This document shows, piece after piece, positions 57,947 through 64,000 of a stretch of 64,000 nucleotides of DNA. The position numbers and the translations under genes were made by a program. The DNA is taken from positions 744,001-808,000 of the forward strand of contig AAUX01000001.1 in NCBI GenBank assembly GCA_000168995.1, given 5' to 3'. Position 1 is the first letter of the stretch. Every line of letters starts with the position of its first letter. The notes under the pieces were generated by a model. It was given only the letters and a program-made list of their open reading frames with translations, was not told the origin of the DNA and searched no databases. Source of the stretch: Methylophilales bacterium HTCC2181. Lineage in GTDB: Bacteria > Pseudomonadota > Gammaproteobacteria > Burkholderiales > Methylophilaceae.

Positions 57947-57973
57947 AAAAAAGCTTTGATTCCCTTTTGAATC
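57947..57973 (-). terminator. Possible terminator of the sdh-fum operon
   Basis: On the minus strand, overlapping the fumarase stop, GATTC (57973-57969) pairs with GAATC (57962-57958) and is followed by AAAGC and a T6 tract. The stem is only 5 bp, so support is modest. Confidence 0.4.
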
Positions 57974-59478
57974 TAATGAATATCGATGGTCTTCCATTTT
58001 TTTGCACCCTGTTCATGGATAGACATACCTTTAGTATCCACAGCAACGGTAACGGGCATATCCACTACCTCAAATTCACGGATCGCCTCCATCCCCAACT
58101 CTGGGAATGCTATGACTTTTGCTGACTTGATGGCCTTTGAGACAAGAAATGCCGCACCACCAACCGCAATTAAATAAGTTGACTCATGCTCCTTAATAGC
58201 TCTTACTGTATCTTCACCTCTTTCAGCCTTGCCGATCATACTCATGATTCCGCACTCGTTAAGCATAAGGTTGGTATATTTATCCATTCTGGTTGCAGTT
58301 GTTGGGCCTGCAGGACCAACAGCTTCGTTACCAACTGCATCAACAGGGCCTACGTAGTATAAAAAACGACCTTTTAGACTCAAGCCATCAGGAAGCTTCT
58401 CACCTCGAGTTAATATATCTTGAATTTTTTTATGTGCCGCATCCCTGGCTGTTAGAATATTTCCGGAAAGTAATAACGTTTGCCCTATCACCCATGACCC
58501 CATGTCCGCCTTATTGAGTTCGTTAACATTCACTCTCAACGCCTCTTTGCTTGGTTGCCAAGTAGCACTTGGCCATAGGTCTAAATTGGGTGGGTCAAGT
58601 TCGGCCGGTCCCTTACCATTTAACGAAAAGTGTATGTGTCTGTTAGCTGCACAGTTTGGAATGATGGCAACGGGAAGTGATGCGGCGTGCGTTGGGTATT
58701 CCTTAATCTTCACGTCGAGGACCGTTGTTAGTCCTCCTAGCCCTTGGGCGCCAATACCCAGGTTATTTACTTTCTCATAAATCTCCAGCCTCAGCTCATC
58801 TATGAGATTTTTCGCCCCATTCTTTATTAATAGTTGAATGTCAATAGGATCCATCAAAGACTCTTTTGCTAATAACATCGCCTTGTCTGCAGTACCGCCT
58901 ACGCCAATACCCAAGACACCGGGGGGGCACCACCCTGCTCCCATCTTTGGCACCGTATCAATAATATAATCTACTAAACTATCTGATGGATTAAGCATTT
59001 TTAGCTGGGCTTTATTTTCAGAGCCCCCGCCCTTAGCGGCGACAATTACCTCAATTTTATCGCCTTTTACCAAGCTAATATGCGTAATTGCGGGAGTATT
59101 ATCTTTAGTATTAAGTCTGTCACCCAGCGGATTATTGACAATGGATGCTCTTAGCGGGTTATCTTGGTTGAGATACGCTCTTCTTACCCCTGCATTTACC
59201 ATCTCCTCCACTGTCGATGATGATTCCCATACCACACCCATTCCCTGCTTAACAAATACCGTAACAATACCTGTGTCTTGGCAAAGAGGTCGGTTACCGT
59301 AAGCTGATAGCTTTGAGCTTGATAGAATTTGTAGGATGGCATCTTTAGCTGGCACCGATTTTTCTAACTCATAGGCTCGAGTCATGGCTAGTATAAAATC
59401 TTCTGAGTGATAGTAAGAGATATATTGCAACGCTGAAGCAATAGACTCTACAAAATCTTTTTCTTTAATTACGCTCAT
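57973..59478 (-). CDS. fumA: Fumarate hydratase, class I
   Basis: An oxygen-labile [4Fe-4S] hydratase interconverting fumarate and malate; class I members also hydrate mesaconate to citramalate. Candidate cluster cysteines lie in PLCQDTGIV (Cys66), GAGWCPPGVLGIGVGGT and NCAANRHIHF. The alpha domain (about 1-280) and beta domain (about 290-501, with TTATRMDKYTNLML) are fused as expected. The 501-aa length is normal. It shares one base with the acyl-CoA synthetase gene and ends the operon. Confidence 0.93.
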   Translation of the reverse strand: MSVIKEKDFVESIASALQYISYYHSEDFILAMTRAYELEKSVPAKDAILQILSSSKLSAYGNRPLCQDTGIVTVFVKQGMGVVWESSSTVEEMVNAGVRRAYLNQDNPLRASIVNNPLGDRLNTKDNTPAITHISLVKGDKIEVIVAAKGGGSENKAQLKMLNPSDSLVDYIIDTVPKMGAGWCPPGVLGIGVGGTADKAMLLAKESLMDPIDIQLLIKNGAKNLIDELRLEIYEKVNNLGIGAQGLGGLTTVLDVKIKEYPTHAASLPVAIIPNCAANRHIHFSLNGKGPAELDPPNLDLWPSATWQPSKEALRVNVNELNKADMGSWVIGQTLLLSGNILTARDAAHKKIQDILTRGEKLPDGLSLKGRFLYYVGPVDAVGNEAVGPAGPTTATRMDKYTNLMLNECGIMSMIGKAERGEDTVRAIKEHESTYLIAVGGAAFLVSKAIKSAKVIAFPELGMEAIREFEVVDMPVTVAVDTKGMSIHEQGAKKWKTIDIH

Positions 59479-61118
59479 TATCGTATGGTTGAGAATGCTG
59501 TAGCAGTTGATCGGTTGATATCTTTCCTCAATATTTTACCATTTTTCGTTCGAGGAAAATGGTTAGTTATGTAAACCACTTTGGGGGCTTTGTAGGATGC
59601 CAGGTTAGCCCTCCCATATTCGACTAAATCATCGGGATTGATGCTTGATTCTGATGCGAGAACATAAACAACAACAAGCACTTTGTCACCAGATACCTCA
59701 CCGATTACTGCGCAATCATTTACTTGCGGATGTGCTTTAAATACTCGCTCAATTTCATAGGGAGACACACGGTAACCAAAACTTTTAATAATGTCATCCT
59801 TCCTTCCCAAAAACCAAAGGTAACCATCTGAGTCGTAGCGAGCATAATCTCCAGTAAAAAACCATCCGTTATGCTTATATTTAGCTGTTTCTTCAGGCAA
59901 ATGCCAATACTCTAAAAAAAGTCCGGGATCGTCTTCTGGAACACAAATCATGCCCTCTTCTCCCGCTTTTATTTCCTCTAGAGTTTCAGGATTGATAAGC
60001 TTTATCTTGTGCCCCGGTTGAGGAAACCCTGCCGATCCTGGCCTAATAGGACGATGGACAGATTGAGAGATGTAATAGGAAAACTCCGACATGCCAACAG
60101 CCTCATATATATCTAATCCAAACCTTGAGTTCCATCGCTCAAAGACTTCATCGGATAAATGCTCTCCTGCACTCATGCAGTGTAAAAGGGATGGAACATC
60201 CTCTTTTGTCGATTGGGTTTTTTGTAAAATTTGACGATAAATAGTTGGTACAGCAATGAAGATTGTGGCGTTATGTTTATGGATTAAATCTACCCATTGA
60301 TTAGGATTATTCTTACCCTCATAAACGATAACGGTTTTACCCAAGTAAAGTGGATCCATAAGACCTGACCCGAGGACATAAGTCCAATTAAACTTACCTG
60401 TGTGGAGTATACGATCATGGACGGCACTAAAATTAAACCAATACTTAGATGCTGGGTTCCTTCCTAATAGTGCCCTATGAGCATGCAACACACCTTTTGG
60501 GTAACCAGTGGTGCCGGATGTATAAACTAGATAGGCTGGGTCATCAGATTTGGTGGCAGGGTTTGGGGTACATACTTCAATCTTGTCTATCTCAATACCT
60601 AGGTCCTTCACATCCAAATAGTCACTAGACAAGTCGTGGCTTGCTTGATGAATAAAGACAGCCTTAAGGAACGTTAATTCCTCTGCGATGGGCTCAAGAC
60701 TTTTCCATGTTTCATGATCGGTTACTAAAACGGCAGCCTCTGAATCTTTAGCAAGGTAAATAACCTCTGTAGCGGTAAGAAGTGTTGATGTAGGAACAGC
60801 AATGCACCCAGCTTTCATTGCTCCTAAAAATGCTATCGGATAATGAAGGCAATTGGGGAGCCTTACAAGTACGCGAGATTGCTTTTCCAGTTTTAAATTC
60901 TTAATAATTTCAGCAAATTGATTAGTCTTAGCCGCTAGTTCATCATAGGTAATGTTAGAGCTTCCTAGCTGATCATCTTCAACAATCATAGCTGTTTGTT
61001 TGCCATTCTTTAGGCTTATTTGTCTGTCTGAGCAGGCCTCACCAATGTTGAAGTATTCTGGAATAATCCATTCCCAGTCTTTATGGTCTGCTGATATATT
61101 TTGTGATCGATCAATCAT
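59478..61118 (-). CDS. AMP-forming acyl-CoA synthetase (ANL superfamily)
   Basis: A 546-aa adenylate-forming CoA ligase. Core motifs are YTSGTTGYPKG near residue 205, YEAVGMSEFSYYIS near residue 340, TGDYARYDSDGYLWFLGRKDD near residue 423 (cited in part), and the C-terminal catalytic lysine in RTKNGKILRKDI. It resembles the benzoate/medium-chain acyl-CoA ligase branch, and the substrate cannot be read from sequence. It lies between a CoA-ester lyase and fumarase, overlapping both. This suggests a dicarboxylic or hydroxy acid such as malate or citramalate as substrate, by inference. Confidence 0.88.
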   Translation of the reverse strand: MIDRSQNISADHKDWEWIIPEYFNIGEACSDRQISLKNGKQTAMIVEDDQLGSSNITYDELAAKTNQFAEIIKNLKLEKQSRVLVRLPNCLHYPIAFLGAMKAGCIAVPTSTLLTATEVIYLAKDSEAAVLVTDHETWKSLEPIAEELTFLKAVFIHQASHDLSSDYLDVKDLGIEIDKIEVCTPNPATKSDDPAYLVYTSGTTGYPKGVLHAHRALLGRNPASKYWFNFSAVHDRILHTGKFNWTYVLGSGLMDPLYLGKTVIVYEGKNNPNQWVDLIHKHNATIFIAVPTIYRQILQKTQSTKEDVPSLLHCMSAGEHLSDEVFERWNSRFGLDIYEAVGMSEFSYYISQSVHRPIRPGSAGFPQPGHKIKLINPETLEEIKAGEEGMICVPEDDPGLFLEYWHLPEETAKYKHNGWFFTGDYARYDSDGYLWFLGRKDDIIKSFGYRVSPYEIERVFKAHPQVNDCAVIGEVSGDKVLVVVYVLASESSINPDDLVEYGRANLASYKAPKVVYITNHFPRTKNGKILRKDINRSTATAFSTIR

Positions 61119-62251
61119 GACGGGTTGCCATAAGGCCAGTTTTGTCTTATCACTTGTTCTGGTAGCTTATTAAGTACTGATAGCGTAAATTTCACATCAC
61201 CCTCTTTTAACGCACCCAGCGCATAAGCTCTAAGAAGGGTTTGAAGCGCTTTCCCAAACATAGGAGGGTCTAACATCTCCCCATTGAATTTAATAGCACC
61301 ACCAAGTAGAGCATCCGCCTCTACTGCAGCCTCTAAAATCTTTACTTTAAGCGCAATATCCGTTGGAGAAGGCGTATAGGCTACTTTGCACAAATGAATA
61401 TGACTAGGATGAATCACTTGTTTTCCTGTTAACCCCATCTCCCTCTCTTTAACCGCATGCCTATACACAATTCTTGACTCCTCATCGCCGTGAAGATCAA
61501 GCCATCGACGCACATCACTTTGCTCCAAGAAGTCACTGGGCATAGACGATCCTCCAATAAGGGTCTCTACCCCACCAATAACCCCTTTTCCTGAAATACG
61601 CGCCTCAAACATAAGCTCATTCAAGAAATATGACAACTCATCTATCCAGTGCGTTGGTGTGATATTAATTCCCATAGCTTTTGAAAAGTCATGAATACCA
61701 AACACCACATGCTTCACTGAATCGAACGACATAAGGTCAGGAGCTATCTTAAGAGATTTTGGATGCTCGATGATGGGTTGTATGGTGATGGAAGGATTTA
61801 TTTTATTAAGATGGTTTGTTAGGTGTTTAATCTCTGAGGCACCATAAACTTCCCCGGCTTTTGCAAGCATGACAGCATCCACACAATCAGGCACCTGCTC
61901 AATGAACTGCATATCAAATTCATAGTCCACTGTTTTAAAAGAATTCACTCGGATAGCGATTGCCACATCAGGCCTGTTCGCACGAAGTAATGGTAGCTCA
62001 TGTAACATAAGCTCACGACTCATCTCTTTTTTCCTACATCCATCTTCTAGATCGAAGATTAATGTATGTGCCTCTGTCGTATAGGCGTGTTTTTTCATAC
62101 GCAAAGATGCCGCTTCTATACTTTCATAAACCCCAGAGGAAGGAGAGTATTTTACGGGAGGATAATAAAGCTGAATACCAGGCCATAAATCTCCTAGCAA
62201 ATCGACATTTAGAGTGTTTATAGTGCTATTCAGAGCATCTTCTTTTTTCAT
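61115..62251 (-). CDS. HpcH/HpaI-CitE family CoA-ester lyase
   Basis: A TIM-barrel lyase of the citrate lyase beta/malyl-CoA lyase superfamily. Visible motifs are LIFDLEDGCRKKEMSREL near residue 64, AIRVNSF, AVMLAKAGEV, IQPIIEHPKSL, VVFGIHDFSKAMGI with the metal-binding Asp, and GKQVIHPSHI. At 378 aa it is longer than CitE (about 290) or malyl-CoA lyase (about 320), with about 60 extra N-terminal residues. Likely substrates are malyl-, methylmalyl- or citramalyl-CoA. It shares one base with sdhE and 4 bp with the synthetase gene. No CitD/CitF partners are present. Confidence 0.85.
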   Translation of the reverse strand: MKKEDALNSTINTLNVDLLGDLWPGIQLYYPPVKYSPSSGVYESIEAASLRMKKHAYTTEAHTLIFDLEDGCRKKEMSRELMLHELPLLRANRPDVAIAIRVNSFKTVDYEFDMQFIEQVPDCVDAVMLAKAGEVYGASEIKHLTNHLNKINPSITIQPIIEHPKSLKIAPDLMSFDSVKHVVFGIHDFSKAMGINITPTHWIDELSYFLNELMFEARISGKGVIGGVETLIGGSSMPSDFLEQSDVRRWLDLHGDEESRIVYRHAVKEREMGLTGKQVIHPSHIHLCKVAYTPSPTDIALKVKILEAAVEADALLGGAIKFNGEMLDPPMFGKALQTLLRAYALGALKEGDVKFTLSVLNKLPEQVIRQNWPYGNPS

Positions 62252-62517
62252 TATCTTTTCCTGGACTGTTGAAGTGCGTTTGCATTAAAACTCTCTATTT
62301 TTAAAACGATTTTTTTATGTGCTGCTAAGGGGTTAGTTTTTTTTTGCAGTATATCGAGCATAGTCATATCGTCTATCATTAAAAATTCGAGTAGCCTTTT
62401 TTTATCATCTACACCCATCATAGAGGAGCCTTTATTAATAAATCCGGATAAAAACAAGTCGAGCTCCAGCAGCCCCCTTCTCGATCGATGCTTTATTTCT
62501 TTATCAATGTTTGTCAT
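62251..62517 (-). CDS. sdhE: Succinate dehydrogenase assembly factor SdhE
   Basis: A small protein (88 aa) that promotes covalent FAD attachment to SdhA. The diagnostic RRGLLELDLFLSGF is present near residue 13, followed by the helical bundle with LLEFLMIDDMTMLDIL. It overlaps sdhB by 14 bp and the lyase gene by one base, which shows that the lyase belongs to the sdh transcript. Confidence 0.92.
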   Translation of the reverse strand: MTNIDKEIKHRSRRGLLELDLFLSGFINKGSSMMGVDDKKRLLEFLMIDDMTMLDILQKKTNPLAAHKKIVLKIESFNANALQQSRKR

Positions 62518-63253
62518 GTTTTATAGTAAAAATTTTCTTAGTTTTTTTAGTGAATGTTGCCTTCTTTGCTTTAATTTGCATTTGCTTAATCCCTGTAATA
62601 GCTTTTGATGGGTTTAGCCCTTTAGGACAAACATCAGCACAATTCATAATATTATGACATCGGTATAAACGATCAGGATCATCCAGATCAACTAAGCGCT
62701 CTTCGCTGCCGTCATCTCTTGAATCAGCAAGGAATCGATAGGCCTGGAGTAATCCAGCAGGACCAACAAATTTATCAGGACTCCACCAGAATGATGGGCA
62801 GGACGTAGTGCATGCCCCACACAAAATACACTCATAAAGGCCGTCCAATTTTTTTCTGTCTTCAGGGCTTTGTAATCTCTCTTTTTTGGGTGGATCCTCA
62901 CTATTGATAAGAAAAGGTTTTACTGAATTGTATTGTTTAAAAAATTGATCCATATTGACAACCAGGTCACGAATTACTGGCAGACCAGGCATAGGTCTGA
63001 TAACTACCGGCTGTTTTAAATCACTTATTTTAGTAACACATGCCAGTCCGTTCTTTCCATTAATGTTCATTGAGTCAGATCCACATACCCCTTCTCTACA
63101 AGACATTCGCATAGACAAAGAATCATCAGTAGATTTAATTTTAATAAGCAGATCTAGTAACATGACATCCTTGTGAGTAACCTCGACATCGTAACTCTGC
63201 ATATAAGGTTTTTTATCTTTATCCGGATCAAATCGATAAATAGATATTTTCAT
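62504..63253 (-). CDS. sdhB: Succinate dehydrogenase iron-sulfur subunit SdhB
   Basis: Carries electrons from SdhA-bound FAD to quinone. The [2Fe-2S] site is CREGVCGSDSMNINGKNGLA (cited in part) near residue 52, and the [4Fe-4S]/[3Fe-4S] ligands are in CILCGACTTSCPSFWW and CHNIMNCADVCPKG. The 249-aa length includes a basic C-terminal extension (KKATFTKKTKKIF) that is slightly longer than E. coli SdhB. It lies 9 bp after sdhA. Confidence 0.97.
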   Translation of the reverse strand: MKISIYRFDPDKDKKPYMQSYDVEVTHKDVMLLDLLIKIKSTDDSLSMRMSCREGVCGSDSMNINGKNGLACVTKISDLKQPVVIRPMPGLPVIRDLVVNMDQFFKQYNSVKPFLINSEDPPKKERLQSPEDRKKLDGLYECILCGACTTSCPSFWWSPDKFVGPAGLLQAYRFLADSRDDGSEERLVDLDDPDRLYRCHNIMNCADVCPKGLNPSKAITGIKQMQIKAKKATFTKKTKKIFTIKHDKH

Positions 63254-63262
63254 AGCTTTCTC

Positions 63263-64000
63263 CTAGTACACACGTTCTTTTAGTGGAAACGAGTCGACGG
63301 TTAGTGGATGTAAATTCACCGGTCGATATGTAATGCTCTTATCTAAGGGGTTGTAGACCGTGTGTTTTAACCATCCATCATCATCCCTCTTAGGATAGTC
63401 GGATCGCGAATGTGACCCCCTACTTTCTTTCCGATTGCTGGCGGAGATAATGGTAGCTTCTGCAACTTCAATGAGATTTTTAACTTCTAATGCTTCAATA
63501 CGCGCAGTATTAAATATTTTTGATGTATCACTTATTGAAAGATTATCCACACGTACTCTAAGGTCCTTGATCTTCTTAACGCCCTCCTCCATAAGCTCTG
63601 GAAATCGGAAAACACCGCAATGTTCCTGCATGACTTTTCTTATCTCATTGCCCACTGCGCGTGGGTCTTCTCCACTTTGTCCTTGCTCAAGAAGTGACAA
63701 CCTTTCAATGGTTATATCACTAGCATTGCTGGGGAGTTTTTTTAATGGGTTATTTTTGCATCGATTAATTACATCAATACCGGCCGCTCTTCCAAAAACA
63801 ATGAGGTCTAATAGTGAGTTAGACCCAAGGCGATTTGCACCGTGAACTGATACACAAGCACACTCACCAACTGCGTAAAATCCTTCAACCACATTCCCAT
63901 GGGTAGTGTCTCTTACTTGGCCGTTCATTGTTGTGGGTATACCACCCATCATATAATGCACAGTAGGGACTACTGGAATAGGATCTTTTACCGGATCGAC
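63263..64000 (-). CDS. sdhA: Succinate dehydrogenase flavoprotein subunit SdhA (C-terminal part)
   Basis: The open frame continues past the right edge, so only the last 245 codons are seen. HYMMGGIPTT and VDPVKDPIPVVPT mark the capping-domain/FAD region. GECACVSVHGANRLGSNSLLDL (cited in part) and the C-terminal RKESRGSHSRSDYPKRDDDG are classic SdhA segments, with the catalytic Arg in the last. The upstream sdhC and sdhD are presumably beyond the edge. Confidence 0.96.
   Translation of the reverse strand, partial: VDPVKDPIPVVPTVHYMMGGIPTTMNGQVRDTTHGNVVEGFYAVGECACVSVHGANRLGSNSLLDLIVFGRAAGIDVINRCKNNPLKKLPSNASDITIERLSLLEQGQSGEDPRAVGNEIRKVMQEHCGVFRFPELMEEGVKKIKDLRVRVDNLSISDTSKIFNTARIEALEVKNLIEVAEATIISASNRKESRGSHSRSDYPKRDDDGWLKHTVYNPLDKSITYRPVNLHPLTVDSFPLKERVY

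Follow-up and report, generated by a model that had tools for sequence, protein, structure and literature searches.

A set of genes comprising prpCBD, cyl1, maoC, cyl2, gntR, mdh, sdhABCD, cyl3, prpE, fum and can has been listed for Methylophilaceae as the methylcitric acid cycle (PMC4109929). The role of the cluster is stated as unknown despite high transcription in situ, where gntR is among the most over-expressed genes and the genes for the ribulose monophosphate pathway, the main route of C1 assimilation, go down (PMC3728764). Methylcitrate transcripts of OM43 are higher with dissolved organic matter (PMC5120137), and the absence of the cluster from Methylopumilus has been read as loss (PMC6794327). 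For Arcobacter, the interconversion of glyoxylate plus propionyl-CoA and pyruvate plus acetyl-CoA was predicted in 2007, with methylcitrate and citramalate cycles drawn jointly (PMC2147049). Here we analyze the copy of the Methylophilaceae cluster, consisting of the same genes, that resides in the 1.30-Mb genome (95% complete) of Methylophilales bacterium HTCC2181 and begins in a 64,000-nucleotide stretch of contig AAUX01000001.1 (C3:744001-808000 in our numbering, hereafter the window). It is a real and conserved pathway cluster that is probably co-regulated, and we tentatively propose that it represents a GntR-linked regulon running from acetyl-CoA and oxaloacetate to glyoxylate and succinate, by which some bacteria of water and soil may achieve what the glyoxylate shunt does.

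The initial annotation of the window had described sdhA (partial), sdhB, sdhE and genes for a lyase, a ligase and a fumarase on the minus strand, spaced by gaps or overlaps of 9, -14, -1, -4 and -1 bp, in exact agreement with the coordinates of the open reading frames. These six genes are real; the interval assigned to them (57973-64000) cuts the operon, and the gene set goes on past the window end. Together they make up one half of a more extensive divergent cluster, with gntR-malic enzyme-sdhCDABE-lyase3-ligase-fumarase on one arm and cyl1-Mch-cyl2-prpBCD on the other. Its features are as follows, positions with the prefix C3 referring to the contig and all others to the window:

57973-59478, minus strand: class I (4Fe-4S) fumarase (fumI), candidate mesaconase, 501 residues (PF05681 310 bits, PF05683 267 bits)
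59478-61118, minus strand: ANL (AMP-forming type) acyl-CoA ligase, candidate mesaconate or citramalate:CoA ligase, 546 residues (PF00501 247 bits, PF13193 49 bits)
61115-62251, minus strand: lyase3 (cyl3 in earlier papers), a long CoA-ester lyase of the CitE/HpcH type and candidate (S)-citramalyl-CoA lyase, 378 residues (PF03328, PF15617)
62251-62517, minus strand: sdhE, FAD assembly factor, 88 residues (PF03937 Sdh5 40.2 bits, cut-off 27)
62504-63253, minus strand: sdhB, succinate dehydrogenase iron-sulfur subunit, 249 residues (NF004616 363 bits, cut-off 228; PF13085)
63263-64000, minus strand: C-terminal part of sdhA, which runs past the window end and has 586 residues as a whole (PF02910; best NCBIfam match TIGR01816 with 263 bits, 232 residues having been scanned)
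C3 807263-809023, minus strand: sdhA, whole gene
C3 809004-809360, minus strand: sdhD
C3 809357-809728, minus strand: sdhC
C3 809729-810916, minus strand: malic enzyme, 395 residues
C3 810913-811620, minus strand: gntR (GntR and UTRA domains)
C3 811897-812778, plus strand: cyl1, 293 residues, best match malyl-CoA/beta-methylmalyl-CoA lyase 5ugr
C3 812750-813826, plus strand: Mch, MaoC/Mch-like hydratase (maoC gene), 358 residues (PF19315, 4e3e, 8hgn)
C3 813828-814826, plus strand: cyl2, 332 residues, best matches 3qqw and 3r4i, PDB entries described no further than as putative citrate lyases
C3 814823-815710, plus strand: prpB, over the NCBIfam equivalog cut-off
C3 815726-816868, plus strand: prpC, over the NCBIfam equivalog cut-off
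C3 816886-818349, plus strand: prpD, over the NCBIfam equivalog cut-off

With prpBCD, cyl1, maoC, cyl2, gntR, a gene for a malate-oxidizing enzyme, sdhABCD, cyl3, and the ligase and fumarase genes, this copy has the membership of the Methylophilaceae cluster, in conserved order. The full order recurs in 9/9 20-kb loci from other Methylophilaceae with lyase3, and three further loci agree as far as they reach; the order of the six-gene operon, the conservation of which the initial annotation had left to be checked, is neither unique to this genome nor due to chance. The sdhE gene went undetected by tblastn in the nine 20-kb loci, where space for it remains. Comparison by eye of 100 genomes of the family revealed both lyase3 and Mch in 57 and neither in 41, the exceptions being two genomes that are at most 86% complete (G061 with Mch only, G052 with a lyase3 fragment only). 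The two genes are kept or lost together in the family. One Mch match (G092:C18:14619-15677) carries a single in-frame TAG and is either a pseudogene or a sequence error. The initial annotation had also named the absence of sucAB from relatives as a point to check; the E1 component of 2-oxoglutarate dehydrogenase (TIGR00239) exceeds its cut-off in 0/100 family genomes, in a search that gave matches in E. coli and five others as positive control.

In the gntR|cyl1 region that separates the arms, the palindrome TCTTATATAAGA occurs without mismatch in 20/20 loci, which comprise 13 from Methylophilaceae, six from GC-richer betaproteobacteria and locus L055 of genome G259. The genome under study has it twice, at C3 811670 and 811803, the second copy directly preceding a TTGACA hexamer (by eye). 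When up to one mismatch is allowed, the palindrome also precedes lyase3 in 13/13 loci in which this gene lies apart (eight exact), about 52-134 bases ahead of start codons chosen by script. Shuffling of these 13 loci (169 kb) yielded a mean of 0.07 and a maximum of one match in 30 shuffles. This control covers the separate lyase3 loci; the closest available for the AT-rich gntR|cyl1 regions comes from the window, where the expectation at one mismatch or fewer is 0.46 matches per 64 kb and zero copies were found. Of 16 short loci from the order-level sample 11 possess the palindrome and five lack it, two of the latter (L088, L090) being Methylophilaceae loci that end before the gntR region. Judging from the common palindrome, the two loci of the split gene set are probably one co-regulated set, and we infer that GntR binds TCTTATATAAGA as a candidate operator. 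Within the open-licence literature we found no paper reporting the palindrome, in searches whose terms did not include its letters, and no match on PrpQ/GntR.

Outside the family, lyase3 was found at E <= 1e-60 in 6/369 class-level genomes, the window's genome counted, and each of the remaining five has the core of cyl1, Mch, cyl2, lyase3 and ligase together. Four of these form a compact five-gene cluster (L053, L054, L056, L057), and the fifth (L055) combines the core with malic enzyme, gntR and prpBCD. L055 adjoins ppsR and a gene for phosphoenolpyruvate synthase (L055:4659-7927), which in another genome, G346, occurs beside prpB-prpC (L079:2628-3500, partial); this adjacency in two different families suggests gluconeogenesis from pyruvate. 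A further 13 loci from betaproteobacteria (L005-L017) have lyase3-ligase apart from prp and sdh within the stretch covered, and fumI follows downstream in ten (L009 and L017 are cut, in L015 none was seen). In L008 a gene for a TIGR00645 family membrane protein (over cut-off, L008:10872-11645) is placed between ligase and fumI, and L007 and L012 have ligase-fumI gaps of similar size. A second ligase gene on the minus strand lies less than 700 bases upstream of lyase3 in 12/13 loci and 6.5 kb away in L016; the two examined (L008, L015) are acetate-CoA ligases over cut-off. Mch was present elsewhere in the genome in 8/8 betaproteobacteria with lyase3-ligase that were searched (G472 and G473 among them), and its region was arranged as gntR | cyl1-Mch-cyl2-prpB-prpC in 6/6 of those inspected, with prpD in three. 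In five of the six, the opposite side holds sdhCDAB and a gene resembling that for citrate synthase, an identity confirmed in two. On plasmids lyase3 had distant matches only (<60% identity in 98/98 records). The corresponding search with cyl2 returned 88 records, and of four that were opened one has an annotated mch beside cyl2 and three do not. The former, a Sphingobium plasmid (AP027342.1; L076:5738-8981), contains a run of 'Alpha-methylacyl-CoA racemase', mch and cyl2, the products of which may act on mesaconate as CoA transferase, hydratase and lyase.

Isocitrate lyase (TIGR01346) exceeds its cut-off in 0/23 module genomes, which comprise ten Methylophilaceae, the window's genome included, and 13 others. 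Matches below cut-off were opened in G346, G160 and, for one of two, G470; by eye they looked prpB-like (L079, L081) or of another PEP-mutase type near a leuC-like frame (L080), and a hidden isocitrate lyase was dismissed for these. Crotonyl-CoA carboxylase/reductase (TIGR01751) is likewise over cut-off in 0/23, the window's genome included, and the idea that Mch belongs to an ethylmalonyl-CoA pathway was rejected on this ground. Among 399 order-level genomes lyase3 occurs in 22 and isocitrate lyase in 197 (196 over cut-off) at E <= 1e-60. Isocitrate lyase is present in 2/22 genomes with lyase3 and in 195/377 without it (p = 8e-5), and when the 13 Methylophilaceae in the sample are set aside the figures are 2/16 and 195/370 (p = 0.0016), neither value being corrected for descent; a single family (f204) accounts for 12 of the 16. 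The C-terminal domain of malate synthase was detected in 0/10 Methylophilaceae and 10/13 others, and in 7/8 betaproteobacteria without isocitrate lyase. The latter, together with the acetate-CoA ligase upstream of lyase3, suits acetate assimilation.

By domain content and catalytic residues lyase3 belongs to the CitE/malyl-CoA lyase family (PF03328 46.4 bits, cut-off 25; PF15617 32.0 bits, cut-off 28.4). It is 92% identical to the lyase on a contig of Methylophilales bacterium UBA4017, and Arg101, Glu162, Asp188, His281 and Asp328 are kept in 33/33 loci; the Arg, Glu and Asp, and an Asp from the second subunit, presumably have the catalytic roles described for malyl-CoA lyase. The equivalent Arg, Glu and two Asp are kept in cyl2 in 25/25 aligned loci (of 26), and cyl1 has Glu (21 loci) or Gln (3 loci) in place of the last Asp. 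By sequence, the maoC product matches known mesaconyl-CoA hydratase and beta-methylmalyl-CoA dehydratase over nearly its full length (PF19315, mesaconyl-CoA hydratase, 76.5 bits, cut-off 26.5; 4e3e 2e-109; 8hgn, beta-methylmalyl-CoA dehydratase, 2e-93 across residues 7-356 of 358); its score stays below the cut-off of a haloarchaeal equivalog (NF041625, 77.3 against 560). Profiles for itaconate degradation are also missed, RipB by Mch (120.9 of 340) and RipC/Ccl by cyl1 (121.9), cyl2 (45.2) and lyase3 (43.5), all of 375. The ligase keeps Lys208 in 32/32 and Lys528 in 31/31 aligned loci. It is named prpE in the earlier gene list (PMC4109929), and in our comparison the PrpE profile TIGR02316 is absent among the 25 best of 106 matching families, none of these 25 reaches an NCBIfam cut-off, and the AcsA profile TIGR02188 scores 226 bits against a cut-off of 725. 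The fumarase retains Cys66 and Cys184 in 25/25 loci that encode it, and Cys276 is retained in 23/23 of those aligned at this position. AlphaFold2 models of lyase3 and ligase (mean pLDDT 59.5 and 68.2) fall short of the quality that pocket analysis requires; a substrate guess for the ligase from pocket residues was therefore dropped, and Foldseek served for family placement only. All 50 rows shown for the low-confidence lyase3 model are CitE-family proteins (citramalyl-CoA, malyl-CoA, CLYBL and citrate-lyase-like), with an rmsd of ~16-22 in all rows shown but one. The initial annotation was right that one operon combines sdh with genes for a member of the malyl/citramalyl-CoA lyase family, a ligase of the AMP-forming type and a class I fumarase.

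In our preferred reading the regulon joins a module for C5 dicarboxylates and their CoA esters (lyase3, ligase, fumarase as mesaconase, Mch, cyl2 and cyl1) with the methylcitrate cycle (prpCDB) and a C4 branch (sdh, fumarase and malic enzyme). Substrates being inferred throughout, lyase3 would condense acetyl-CoA and pyruvate to (S)-citramalyl-CoA, the thioester of which would be hydrolyzed to citramalate by lyase3 itself or by cyl1. Class I fumarase would dehydrate citramalate to mesaconate, the ligase would form mesaconyl-C1-CoA at the expense of ATP, Mch would hydrate the latter to beta-methylmalyl-CoA, and cyl2 would cleave this to propionyl-CoA and glyoxylate. Finally, PrpC, PrpD, aconitase and PrpB would convert propionyl-CoA and oxaloacetate to pyruvate and succinate. 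Pyruvate would be regenerated, one ATP would be split to AMP, and the net reaction would be the one that citrate synthase, aconitase and isocitrate lyase catalyze jointly. An aconitase gene was not seen by eye beside fumI or prpD; in the Methylophilaceae list, can may be the aconitase gene. The activity assigned to the fumarase has precedents, as hydration of mesaconate is reported for class I enzymes from both E. coli and Burkholderia xenovorans (PMC4682846). Candidates for the citramalate-cycle steps in the cluster are lyase3, fumI, ligase, Mch and cyl2, all by sequence. Hydrolysis of citramalyl-CoA by cyl1 would make this protein a thioesterase, a speculation that draws on analogy: Rhodobacter reportedly possesses a malyl-CoA thioesterase that is a paralogue of the lyase.

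Several observations weigh against this proposal, the direction of flux being its weakest point. A thioesterase gene was not seen in the cluster. The fusion of ligase and CitE domains in Arcobacter AB1918 suggests that the product of the ligase is the substrate of the lyase, which fits activation of citramalate or malate better than that of mesaconate, and Arcobacter butzleri with its similar gene set is reported not to grow on acetate (PMC2147049). Malate synthase is missing from all ten Methylophilaceae tested, the window's genome included, and from G259, G346 and G473. The anticorrelation with isocitrate lyase is uncorrected for descent (by genus 2/8 versus 96/144, p = 0.024), and two genomes, G496 and G773, carry both enzymes; four others of the same genus (G621, G716, G801, G826) have lyase3 only. 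The palindrome is absent from three 4-kb loci outside the Methylophilaceae (L092, L099, L103), the last of which belongs to G496, that is a genome with isocitrate lyase, and is also absent from the four five-gene loci. In the fetched stretch of these four, prp, sdh and fumI were not seen; fumI was likewise not seen in L055 and L015, nor sdh in L055. Furthermore, cyl1 of the five-gene loci lacks one or more supposed catalytic residues (Gly replaces Arg in L053, Asn the metal-site Asp in L054, L056 and L057, and Asp the Glu in L057). Given these departures and the Glu or Gln at the position of the last Asp, cyl1 may not be an ordinary lyase, and its role may differ in these loci.

Beyond the shunt-like sequence, a complete, pyruvate-regenerating citramalate-methylcitrate cycle towards glyoxylate in betaproteobacteria without isocitrate lyase, with PrpB replacing that enzyme, is rather unlikely; closed in Methylophilaceae by malic enzyme, succinate dehydrogenase, fumarase, the functions of malate and pyruvate dehydrogenase, and malyl-CoA or another route for glyoxylate, it would allow full oxidation of acetyl-CoA.

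The main rival to our proposal, on balance improbable yet the strongest of the alternatives, has the same enzymes working in the opposite direction, from propionyl-CoA and glyoxylate via beta-methylmalyl-CoA, mesaconyl-CoA, mesaconate, citramalate and citramalyl-CoA (formed by the ligase) to acetyl-CoA and pyruvate. It would amount to a free-acid form of the glyoxylate half of the 3-hydroxypropionate bi-cycle, with the methylcitrate cycle clearing propionyl-CoA and glyoxylate. This direction was favored for Arcobacter (PMC2147049), where the ligase is fused to a CitE domain just as it follows lyase3 here, and it accords with the absence of malate synthase from the ten Methylophilaceae genomes searched. 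However, it requires sources of both glyoxylate and propionyl-CoA as well as a mesaconyl-CoA hydrolase, the last of which was not seen in the cluster, and it leaves unexplained why isocitrate lyase is mostly missing and why malate synthase is kept in 10/13 genomes outside the family. Plain catabolism of propionate or of C5 dicarboxylates from outside (mesaconate, citramalate, beta-methylmalate), for which the extra genes would widen the substrate range, appears quite unlikely. It would agree with the prpBCD scores over equivalog cut-offs, with the name methylcitric acid cycle in earlier papers and with the part that class I fumarase takes in mesaconate use by Burkholderia xenovorans (PMC4682846), but a transporter gene was not found by eye among the open reading frames of the cluster, the extra enzymes are unnecessary for propionate, the set is retained in a 1.3-Mb genome, and the palindrome also precedes the separate lyase3-ligase locus. 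Of the two routes in the initial annotation, the C5 alternative via mesaconate and citramalate is indicated by the divergent arm, since Mch, two more CoA lyases and prpBCD point to this chemistry and to that of propionyl-CoA and glyoxylate. The other, from succinate via fumarate, malate and malyl-CoA (formed by the AMP-forming ligase) to acetyl-CoA and glyoxylate, is highly improbable: notwithstanding the contiguity of sdh, lyase, ligase and fumarase, the family of lyase3 and a malyl-CoA lyase step in the Arcobacter paper (PMC2147049), it gives no role to Mch, cyl1, cyl2 and prpBCD, although Mch is kept and lost with lyase3 and stays with it, as do cyl1 and cyl2, outside the family, and sdh was not seen in the five-gene loci or that of G259.

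If our proposal of a glyoxylate-shunt equivalent and its closure hold true, the regulon would stand in for the citric acid cycle in Methylophilaceae without 2-oxoglutarate dehydrogenase, taking acetyl-CoA to CO2, and it may explain acetate assimilation in some betaproteobacteria without isocitrate lyase. The defined gene set and candidate operator make the citramalate cycle, proposed in 1997 and debated, testable. As proposed for Rhodospirillum rubrum, this cycle follows the same chain, from acetyl-CoA and pyruvate via citramalate, mesaconate, mesaconyl-CoA and methylmalyl-CoA to glyoxylate and propionyl-CoA; in that scheme, propionyl-CoA returns through methylmalonyl-CoA and a CoA transferase activates mesaconate, whereas the present cluster offers prpCDB and an AMP-forming-type ligase (PMC8307300). 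The same paper lists the citramalate-cycle reactions and the methylcitrate pathway as combinable blocks, the latter as one outlet for propionyl-CoA. Mch and lyases for malyl-, methylmalyl- and citramalyl-CoA are shared with the glyoxylate half of the 3-hydroxypropionate bi-cycle, partial gene sets for which occur in organisms including the betaproteobacterium Accumulibacter (PMC6593406). A gene for the mesaconyl-CoA C1-C4 transferase (Mct) of the bi-cycle, or another CoA transferase, was not found in a search confined to the proteins of the cluster; free mesaconate and the ligase would replace it. In Arcobacter butzleri, ab1917-ab1921 encode CitE, a ligase joined to CitE, a hydratase, CitE and class I fumarase, with the methylcitrate genes elsewhere (PMC2147049). 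This likeness rests on gene descriptions; ligase and lyase form one polypeptide there (AB1918) and are separate here, and the direction favored for Arcobacter, towards acetyl-CoA and pyruvate, is opposite to that preferred by us. In the open-licence literature we found no paper that assigns a citramalate-methylcitrate route to Methylophilaceae. Earlier papers on this family left the role of the cluster open and regarded the ligase as PrpE, whereas here a citramalate-methylcitrate pathway and a common palindrome are put forward. To a known gene list and an old partial prediction, the present analysis adds a delimited module together with a candidate operator and a proposed role.

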